Shown: positions 13,351 to 15,119 of the stretch, piece by piece | Layout: each line of letters starts with the position of its first letter | Numbering within the stretch: the first letter of the stretch is position 1 | Assembly: GCA_016199985.1 (NCBI GenBank) | Contig: JACQFQ010000005.1 | Coordinates: 124,001 to 188,000 of the forward strand | DNA from: Verrucomicrobiota bacterium | GTDB lineage: Bacteria > Verrucomicrobiota > Verrucomicrobiia > Limisphaerales > UBA11320 | Reading direction: 5' to 3' | Length of the DNA: 64,000 nt | Program-made: the position numbers and the translations under genes | Notes under the pieces: generated by a model | Seen by the model: the letters and a program-made list of their open reading frames with translations, nothing else | Told to the model about the DNA's origin: nothing | The model's database searches: none

Positions 13351-14361
13351 CTAGTATAAGAGCAGGTTCAACAGCTCGGTTCCGGCGGGCGCGAGCTCCC
13401 ATCGTCCCGCGGTTTGACGCAGCAGCTTTCTGCAGGAGCGCTGCTTCTGCTCAGCCTCGTTGACGTACAGGACCTGGCTCGACGCGAGGCTCTTCATTTC
13501 CGATGCGGCTCGCGGCGTGCACTCAAACGGGAGGCCCATGAAGTTCAACGCCAGCTCGTATCCCGCCGCGCCCTCCTTCTGCGCTCGAGGGTTCGGCCGA
13601 ATGAGGCCCGGATTGGCGCGGAGCCACGGAAAGTCCGTCGCCTTCACGAACACGCGGCACAGCTCGGCCTGGCCTCTCACCCACCGCGCCGGGCTGAACT
13701 TGCCGCCGGCGCGGCGTTGTTCCAAAAAGAGGTTCCAGGGATCCAGCCCCAGAAGATTGCGCCCATTCCAGTTGCCATGGTCGTTTCTCTCCCCTTCGCG
13801 GTTTCTGGAATGCCAATCGGCGTACCGAGGGTTGACCTGGAAATCGAACTCGAGATGAAGGTGGGCGCGATCCTTGCCGATCGACGCGCGCGTGTTTGTC
13901 GTGCGGCCCATCGTGGCGATCACCTCGCCCGCGTGAACCTCCGATCCCGCCCTCAGGCCCGGTTGGATGGCGGCGAGATGCGCGTAAAGCGAGCACAGCG
14001 TCAGCCCGTCCACGGCATGGCGGATCACAATATAGTTCCCGTAGTTCGAGAGCCCGCTGTGGGTGTTCACGTAAACCACCGTCCCGTTCGCCACCGCCAT
14101 CACCGGATCGATCGGCTCTCCCCGTCGGTCGGTCTTCTGATGCAGAATGTCCACGCCCTCGTGCAGCTGGCGTCCCTCGGTCCTCACGCATCCGAACGTC
14201 CCCGCGACCCAGGTCTTGCCCACCGTCGGCGCGAAGAACCGCGCCTCCCCGCCGGCCTCGAAGATCGCGCGATTCGCCGTGGGCAGCTGGAAGAGGGGCT
14301 CCGCGGATCGAGCCGTCAGGCAGGCCGCGGCGACGAGGAGCGTCAGGGAGGGACGGAGCAT
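13351..14361 (-). CDS. Secreted M23-family (LytM-type) metallopeptidase
   Basis: 336 residues with a signal peptide (MLRPSLTLLVAAACLTARSA). The M23 zinc site is visible: HEGVD gives His67 and Asp71, and DRAHLHLEF gives His167 and His169, matching the HxxxD...HxH pattern of active LytM/lysostaphin-type endopeptidases. The intervening VMAVANGTVVYVN and GNYIVIRH strands are also typical. The segment after the active-site domain (about residues 175-336) is longer than the minimal domain and not recognised. The likely role is cutting peptide cross-links in periplasmic peptidoglycan. It begins 11 bases after the stop of the upstream SecD-head-like gene on the same strand, so the two are probably co-transcribed. 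That pairing suggests a shared envelope function, which is inference. Confidence 0.87.
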   Translation of the reverse strand: MLRPSLTLLVAAACLTARSAEPLFQLPTANRAIFEAGGEARFFAPTVGKTWVAGTFGCVRTEGRQLHEGVDILHQKTDRRGEPIDPVMAVANGTVVYVNTHSGLSNYGNYIVIRHAVDGLTLCSLYAHLAAIQPGLRAGSEVHAGEVIATMGRTTNTRASIGKDRAHLHLEFDFQVNPRYADWHSRNREGERNDHGNWNGRNLLGLDPWNLFLEQRRAGGKFSPARWVRGQAELCRVFVKATDFPWLRANPGLIRPNPRAQKEGAAGYELALNFMGLPFECTPRAASEMKSLASSQVLYVNEAEQKQRSCRKLLRQTAGRWELAPAGTELLNLLLY

Positions 14362-14372
14362 GCGCGTCGCCG

Positions 14373-14978
14373 TCAGAATTTGTCCGCCTTCTTCTTGATC
14401 TCCGCGATCGTCAGCAGGCCGTCCACAATGCGCTCCATCTCCGCCGGCGTGGCGTCTGGGGTAAATCGAAGCACCCCGTCGGAAATGAGCCGCGTGATGA
14501 CGGGCGCCGCGAGCCAGCGATGCTCCTTGTCGAAGTCGCTGTAGATCACCAATCGCCTCCCCCGATTCGCGGCGGTGGAGTTCTCGAGCAGGGTTCTCCC
14601 CATGGAATTGAACTGCAGCTCGATCTCAGGCCCGCCGATCGTCGAGACCACCTTCGCGTCCGCAAGATAAGCCTCGGTCACGACGGGCTCCCGGTCGACG
14701 CTCACGCTGATGGGACTCGACCGCAGAACCTGCACCGTGACGATGCGATCGGTGCCGTCCCGGGTCGCCTCCAGATGAACGCGCACCGTGCTCACCACCT
14801 TCTTTCGGCTTTTCTTCTTCTTCGCGGCCGCCTTGTCATCAGGCTTGTCGGCGGGCTTGTCGGACGCCACGGCGGCGGCGGGCTTGCCCGTTTCTTCGAG
14901 AGCGATGGCGGTGTCCGCGACCGACGCCAACAAAACGCACAGGAAATAGGTGTTGAACGCGTGAAATCGAATCTTCAT
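14373..14978 (-). CDS. Exported protein with a SecD P1-head-like domain
   Basis: The ORF track uses a TTG at 14996. The ATG at 14978 has a GGGCGGA Shine-Dalgarno a few bases upstream and starts MKIRFHAFNTYFLCVLLASVADTAIA, a signal peptide, so I prefer it (201 residues). A Lys/Ala/Asp-rich linker (about residues 30-62) follows. The C-terminal half (IELQFNSMGRTLLENSTAAN, GRRLVIYSDF, LAAPVITRLISDGVLRF, TPAEMERIVDGL) resembles the SecD/SecDF periplasmic P1 head subdomain, in which analogous 'GRRLAIVLDG...SAPVI..PI..G' motifs occur. It has none of the SecD transmembrane segments. So it is a stand-alone secreted head-like domain of unknown function, sitting 11 bases ahead of the M23 peptidase. Confidence 0.72.
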   Translation of the reverse strand: MKIRFHAFNTYFLCVLLASVADTAIALEETGKPAAAVASDKPADKPDDKAAAKKKKSRKKVVSTVRVHLEATRDGTDRIVTVQVLRSSPISVSVDREPVVTEAYLADAKVVSTIGGPEIELQFNSMGRTLLENSTAANRGRRLVIYSDFDKEHRWLAAPVITRLISDGVLRFTPDATPAEMERIVDGLLTIAEIKKKADKF

Positions 14979-15026
14979 ATTCCGCCCGCTAAGCAATCGA
15001 ACCGCATCGGCAAAGTAAAGAGAGTT

Positions 15027-15119
15027 ATGGGCAAACAGAGCAACAAGGTCGAAAAACGTCGTCGCCGTGAGAGTTATCTGAAGCGCAGAAAAGAAAAGGC
15101 CAAGCCGAAGAAGGCTTGA
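15027..15119 (+). CDS. 30-residue highly basic small protein
   Basis: An ATG at 15027 opens MGKQSNKVEKRRRRESYLKR and continues with a Lys/Arg-rich end, stopping at 15119 (30 residues, 18 of them Lys or Arg by my reading). The sequence GTAAAGAGAG just upstream serves as a plausible Shine-Dalgarno. In the track it appears only as the tail of a spurious ORF (13896-15119). The composition is unlike noise in this GC-rich DNA: AAA/AAG and CGT codons replace the GC-only third positions of the antisense shadows. Short basic proteins of this kind usually bind rRNA or nucleic acid, but I cannot name a family with certainty. It is divergent from the SecD-head/M23 operon, with about 48 bases between starts. 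Confidence 0.7.
   Translation: MGKQSNKVEKRRRRESYLKRRKEKAKPKKA

Follow-up and report, generated by a model that had tools for sequence, protein, structure and literature searches.

A conserved 30-residue basic mini-protein of Verrucomicrobiota with a possible role at the ribosome

The open reading frame at 15027-15119 (+) of the window, by which we mean the whole 64,000-nucleotide stretch of DNA analysed, is, as judged by sequence comparison, a real single-copy protein-coding gene and belongs to a previously unnamed family found across Verrucomicrobiota. From the size, charge and distribution of the mini-protein and from its YacP and RlmI-like gene neighbours, we infer that it is ribosome-associated, most likely as an rRNA-binding protein of a new auxiliary Verrucomicrobiota family, and we put the probability of this reading at roughly 0.55. 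No family model covers the mini-protein, though it is conserved over much of the phylum including the gut bacterium Akkermansia, and if it is indeed ribosomal then the list of known Verrucomicrobiota ribosome components would be incomplete. The case also shows that comparative genomics can confidently recover an ORF of 30 codons.

A conserved gene of 30 codons

The ORF begins with ATG, encodes 30 residues and ends with a TGA stop. Its product, MGKQSNKVEKRRRRESYLKRRKEKAKPKKA, contains 15 K/R and 3 D/E residues, and the gene and its parts lie in the window as follows.

15027..15119 (+): basic mini-protein gene, 30 aa, stop TGA (translation, conservation, pS/pN, predicted helix)
15027..15104 (+): conserved core, residues 1-26 (column counts over 106 distinct sequences; alignments)
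15105..15116 (+): variable tail rich in K, A and P (comparison of members)

The original prediction of a 30-residue Lys/Arg-rich ORF at this place was exact in its coordinates, and the conservation described below far exceeds chance. It had also held that the gene would escape standard length cut-offs; 93 nt is borderline, not clearly under the usual ORF-caller limits, and the Akkermansiaceae homologues, at 90-120 aa, are above any usual cut-off. A longer ORF with a TTG start (13896-15119, +) shares the frame of the mini-protein and is an open frame only, being closed in most relatives by a stop just 5' of the mini-protein start.

The prediction had been made to depend on a conserved counterpart with a preserved reading frame, and we found one in 37 of 40 relatives. 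This set comprised the window's genome, 4 genomes of its genus and 35 from other families of the same order (36 families), and each of the 37 genomes had exactly one match, with E-values from 5e-9 to 0.07. The start and the stop-bounded frame are retained in nearly all members inspected, with slight shifts in the position of the stop, and among the members read in detail the similarity is concentrated within the ORF. Over 106 distinct sequences the near-invariant residues are M1, G2, Q4, N6, K7, K10, R11, R13, R14, Y17 and R20, so that all 11 lie within the first 20 positions. Pooled differences per site within the genus amount to 0.74 at synonymous (pS) and 0.15 at non-synonymous (pN) sites, and within the order to 0.84 and 0.20, respectively, while in pairwise comparisons of 114 distinct cores the differences at codon positions 3, 1 and 2 stand at 78:39:26 (thousands). 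Purifying selection on the mini-protein is strong, and an effect of composition is excluded.

The codon usage of the gene had been described as distinctive. CGY codons make up 70% of Arg codons in the order's mini-proteins versus 54% in neighbouring genes (p = 0.002), which upholds the difference as such, but the argument is weak because bS21, a real ribosomal gene, lacks the bias with a CGY share of likewise 54%. On the same ground we did not accept the bias as proof that the gene is highly expressed.

Distribution across Verrucomicrobiota

Our search of 289 high-quality genomes sampled over the phylum Verrucomicrobiota identified the mini-protein in 172 with a profile built from the order's members and in 198 with a widened profile (the order profile plus 70 diverse members), nearly always as a single copy. 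Members of different classes share the core MG(K/Q)QxNK(V/I)xKRxRRxxYxxRxK, keeping start and frame while the tail varies in length. Remote members fit the pattern, for instance MSQQHTKREKRNRRKRYLERVKERANAAKKDAKK, and in some of them GTG or TTG serves as the start codon. When 84,980 species of bacteria and archaea were scanned with a sequence pattern, 186 places were confirmed; all of the 80 listed among these 186 are in Verrucomicrobiota and belong to Pedosphaera/Limisphaerales, Akkermansiaceae, Roseibacillus, Chthoniobacteraceae, Opitutae, Methylacidiphilales and Lentisphaeria/Victivallis. No copies were found on the viral contigs and plasmids searched.

With the widened profile the mini-protein is absent from whole families, among them f37, whose seven listed genomes are all negative. 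Comparison of the profile results over the 289 genomes showed that families without it still keep bS22, so the mini-protein is dispensable in places. Universality within the lineage is a property of bS22 (bS22-like gene in 284 of 289 genomes) and not of the mini-protein (198 of 289), and this patchy loss, as read from genome sequences, speaks for an auxiliary role and against a core one. One genome of family f39 (G191; locus L206, about position 1360) carries a mini-protein gene that is frameshifted in an A-rich stretch beside YacP. Three genomes of the same genus carry the open gene and the G191 genome is apparently complete; the frameshift is either a sequencing error or a recent loss.

Predicted structure and comparison with known families

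AlphaFold2 returned a single helix spanning residues 5-25 with a mean pLDDT of 81. The product is predicted to be one alpha-helix of very basic character, capped at its N terminus by the short conserved stretch MG-K/Q-Q-x-N-K and followed by a Lys/Ala tail that can be dispensed with. This tail may be only a few residues long or may exceed 80, and most members total 28-37 aa. The Akkermansiaceae proteins are an extreme, with histone-H1-like KAPAKKA tails of 60-90 residues that are rich in Lys, Ala and Pro and variable in length (loci L053, L055, L059, L060, L062, L065-L067, L070, L074 and L078-L080 are among the long-tailed ones).

Pfam and NCBIfam scans of the ORF and 70 members gave chance-level matches only, and the ORF itself matched no families by hmmscan. 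Searches of all PDB chains, ribosomal proteins included, by phmmer and by profile gave no match at E <= 10, the queries being very short and the sensitivity accordingly limited. Literature searches by sequence fragment and keyword returned nothing on the mini-protein family.

We then compared the mini-protein with the small ribosomal proteins it resembles. bTHX is a lineage-restricted 30S protein of about 26 residues that is basic and begins with MGK. The two are alike in small size, basic charge and MGK start but show no homology: none of the 289 genomes matched the bTHX model (TIGR04560) at E <= 0.001, and hhalign of the family alignment with Thermus THX gave a probability of 0.4%. By sequence, then, the mini-protein could be an analogue of bTHX at most. 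bS22/mS38 (AURKAIP1, COX24_C, PF08213), along with eL41, are about 30 residues long, extremely basic and single-helical, and are encoded by stand-alone and often unannotated genes (PMC10618245), all of which recalls the mini-protein, but they are unlike it in sequence. In Borrelia, bS22 was a non-annotated mini-protein, with 61% K/R, and occupies an rRNA pocket of h2/h27/h44/h45 (PMC10618245). Identity with bS22/COX24_C was rejected, as hhalign gave 1.4% and the PF08213 match in the window's genome is a separate locus; since 284 of the 289 genomes carry this separate bS22-like gene, the mini-protein is not bS22. In the window's genome the bS22-like gene encodes 33 aa at G000:C76:40797-40895 (locus L150, position 798), and its protein falls just under the Pfam cut-off in 18 of 19 matched relatives. 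Replacement of bS21 was rejected too, bS21 being present in 19 of 20 relatives. The C-terminal helix of uS15 (PF00312) shares a local likeness, KRR(R/K)xxxYLKRK, with the mini-protein. Two members match Ribosomal_S15 with a best E-value of 0.012 and hhalign gave 4%, which we attribute to chance or convergence rather than mimicry of uS15.

Gene neighbours

YacP (PF05991, E = 6e-31) is encoded immediately downstream of the mini-protein gene, and in the same direction, in 32 loci from Akkermansiaceae, Chthoniobacteraceae and Methylacidiphilales. The orientation is constant (32 of the 32 loci with a nearby YacP match) and the gap is mostly 20-110 bp. The Bacillus subtilis protein YacP/Rae1 has been described as an endoribonuclease of mRNA decay that depends on the ribosome (Leroy et al. 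2017, as cited in PMC11780869). A PUA-domain gene resembling RlmI is divergent from the mini-protein gene in 10 loci; its N-terminal PUA_3 match was confirmed, and by its sequence it encodes a putative methyltransferase. One locus (L181) has both the YacP and the RlmI-like neighbours.

In the window's genome YacP lies at C42:231887, on a contig other than that of the mini-protein, so the linkage is lineage-specific. Here the mini-protein gene is a stand-alone unit within its order: an intrinsic terminator follows it in 13 of 20 order members, where 0.1 would be expected, and none is evident after the window's own copy. In other classes the gene neighbours are different again. Such differences between classes are usual for stand-alone genes of mini ribosomal proteins.

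Proposed function and alternatives

A resemblance to ribosome-associated mini-proteins had been suggested from size and charge. We find that the likeness extends to the predicted helix, the single-copy stand-alone gene and the linkage with YacP/Rae1 and RlmI-like genes, while bTHX, bS22 and the PDB chains give no homology and ribosome binding itself is a deduction from these features. A short basic helix (as predicted), a single gene copy and wide conservation in the lineage are all found in the mini-protein. Most probably its helix would lie along rRNA on the ribosome, as in bS22, bTHX or eL41, with Arg and Lys side chains contacting rRNA phosphates and with specificity provided by the near-invariant Q4, N6 and Y17, and the mini-protein would contribute to assembly, to stability or to the surveillance of mRNA coupled to translation. 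A bolder version, which we offer as a tentative proposal, is that it is an unrecognised ribosomal protein specific to Verrucomicrobiota (including Lentisphaeria) that fills an rRNA site left unfilled by known bacterial proteins and is tied functionally to Rae1/YacP. Counting against a ribosomal function are the lack of any sequence relation in the PDB, the weakness of codon bias as an argument, the losses at family level, the neighbours that vary between classes and the histone-like tails of Akkermansiaceae.

The same sequence evidence would fit a transient factor of ribosome assembly or hibernation, or an rRNA chaperone, rather than a structural ribosomal protein, and the patchy loss of the gene from whole families suggests an auxiliary role. 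The present data do not tell a transient factor from a structural protein, and we regard the former as unlikely. We hold it equally improbable that the mini-protein is a small nucleoid-associated, histone-H1-like protein that neutralises DNA through its basic helix and its tail of Lys, Ala and Pro. The long KAPAKKA tails of Akkermansiaceae resemble the HC1/HC2 histone H1-like nucleoproteins (PF07382) in their Lys/Ala/Pro composition, and two long-tailed homologues score 19.2 and 15.3 bits against HC2 (best E = 0.0014). Both scores are, however, under the gathering score of 40, the tail is missing from most members, selection acts on a helix core with the uncharged Q4, N6 and Y17 rather than on bulk charge, and the neighbours with a plausible mechanistic tie are RNA and ribosome genes.

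The mini-protein could also serve the YacP/Rae1 endonuclease as its dedicated partner or as a regulator, perhaps by docking YacP on the ribosome, since the mini-protein gene lies directly upstream on the same strand wherever YacP is nearby and the linkage persists in Methylacidiphilales. We consider this slightly less probable still. In the window's order both genes exist but on different contigs, four genomes (G015, G019, G060 and G138) have the mini-protein without a YacP match, and several genomes have YacP without the mini-protein, a check upstream of YacP revealing only the frameshifted copy in G191. Finally, the very short ORF and the YacP gene downstream of it in several orders might point to a leader peptide or translational attenuator, in which the act of translation is what matters, or to a chance open frame, but this is close to refuted: specific residues are kept from class to class even though synonymous sites have almost reached saturation, and in the window's order a terminator of its own mostly follows the gene, with no conserved gene downstream.

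Upstream region and divergent genes

Two further features adjoin the mini-protein gene in the window.

14979..15026 (+): shared divergent intergenic region of 48 bp with the motif (AA)AGTAAAG (sequence comparison)
14373..14978 (-): divergent neighbour, SecD P1-head-like secreted protein (PF22599, E = 6e-7)

The start context had been called good, and this stands in so far as a conserved A-rich leader precedes the gene: (AA)AGTAAAG lies about 6 nt 5' of the ATG in most order members (within 15010-15026 in the window), and GTAAA occurs within 25 nt 5' of the ATG in 16 of 20 order members versus 1.6 expected. It does not extend to a Shine-Dalgarno sequence, of which there is none before the window's ATG; AGGAG-type sites precede the start in Lentisphaeria members. 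No match to the sigma-70 consensus was found in 14979-15026. On the opposite strand the motif reads CTTTACT, resembling the TTTACT upstream of bS22-like genes, and it may therefore mark either the -10 box for the divergent gene or a very short leader.

A SecD-head-like gene is divergent upstream of the mini-protein gene in 46 loci, among which are all 20 order members (L001-L020). The protein encoded at 14373-14978 (-) has a SecDF P1-head domain together with a linker rich in Lys, and no other parts of SecD were seen in it. In many relatives a second minus-strand gene follows the SecD-head-like gene; the window copy, at 13351-14361 (-), looks like an M23-type peptidase.
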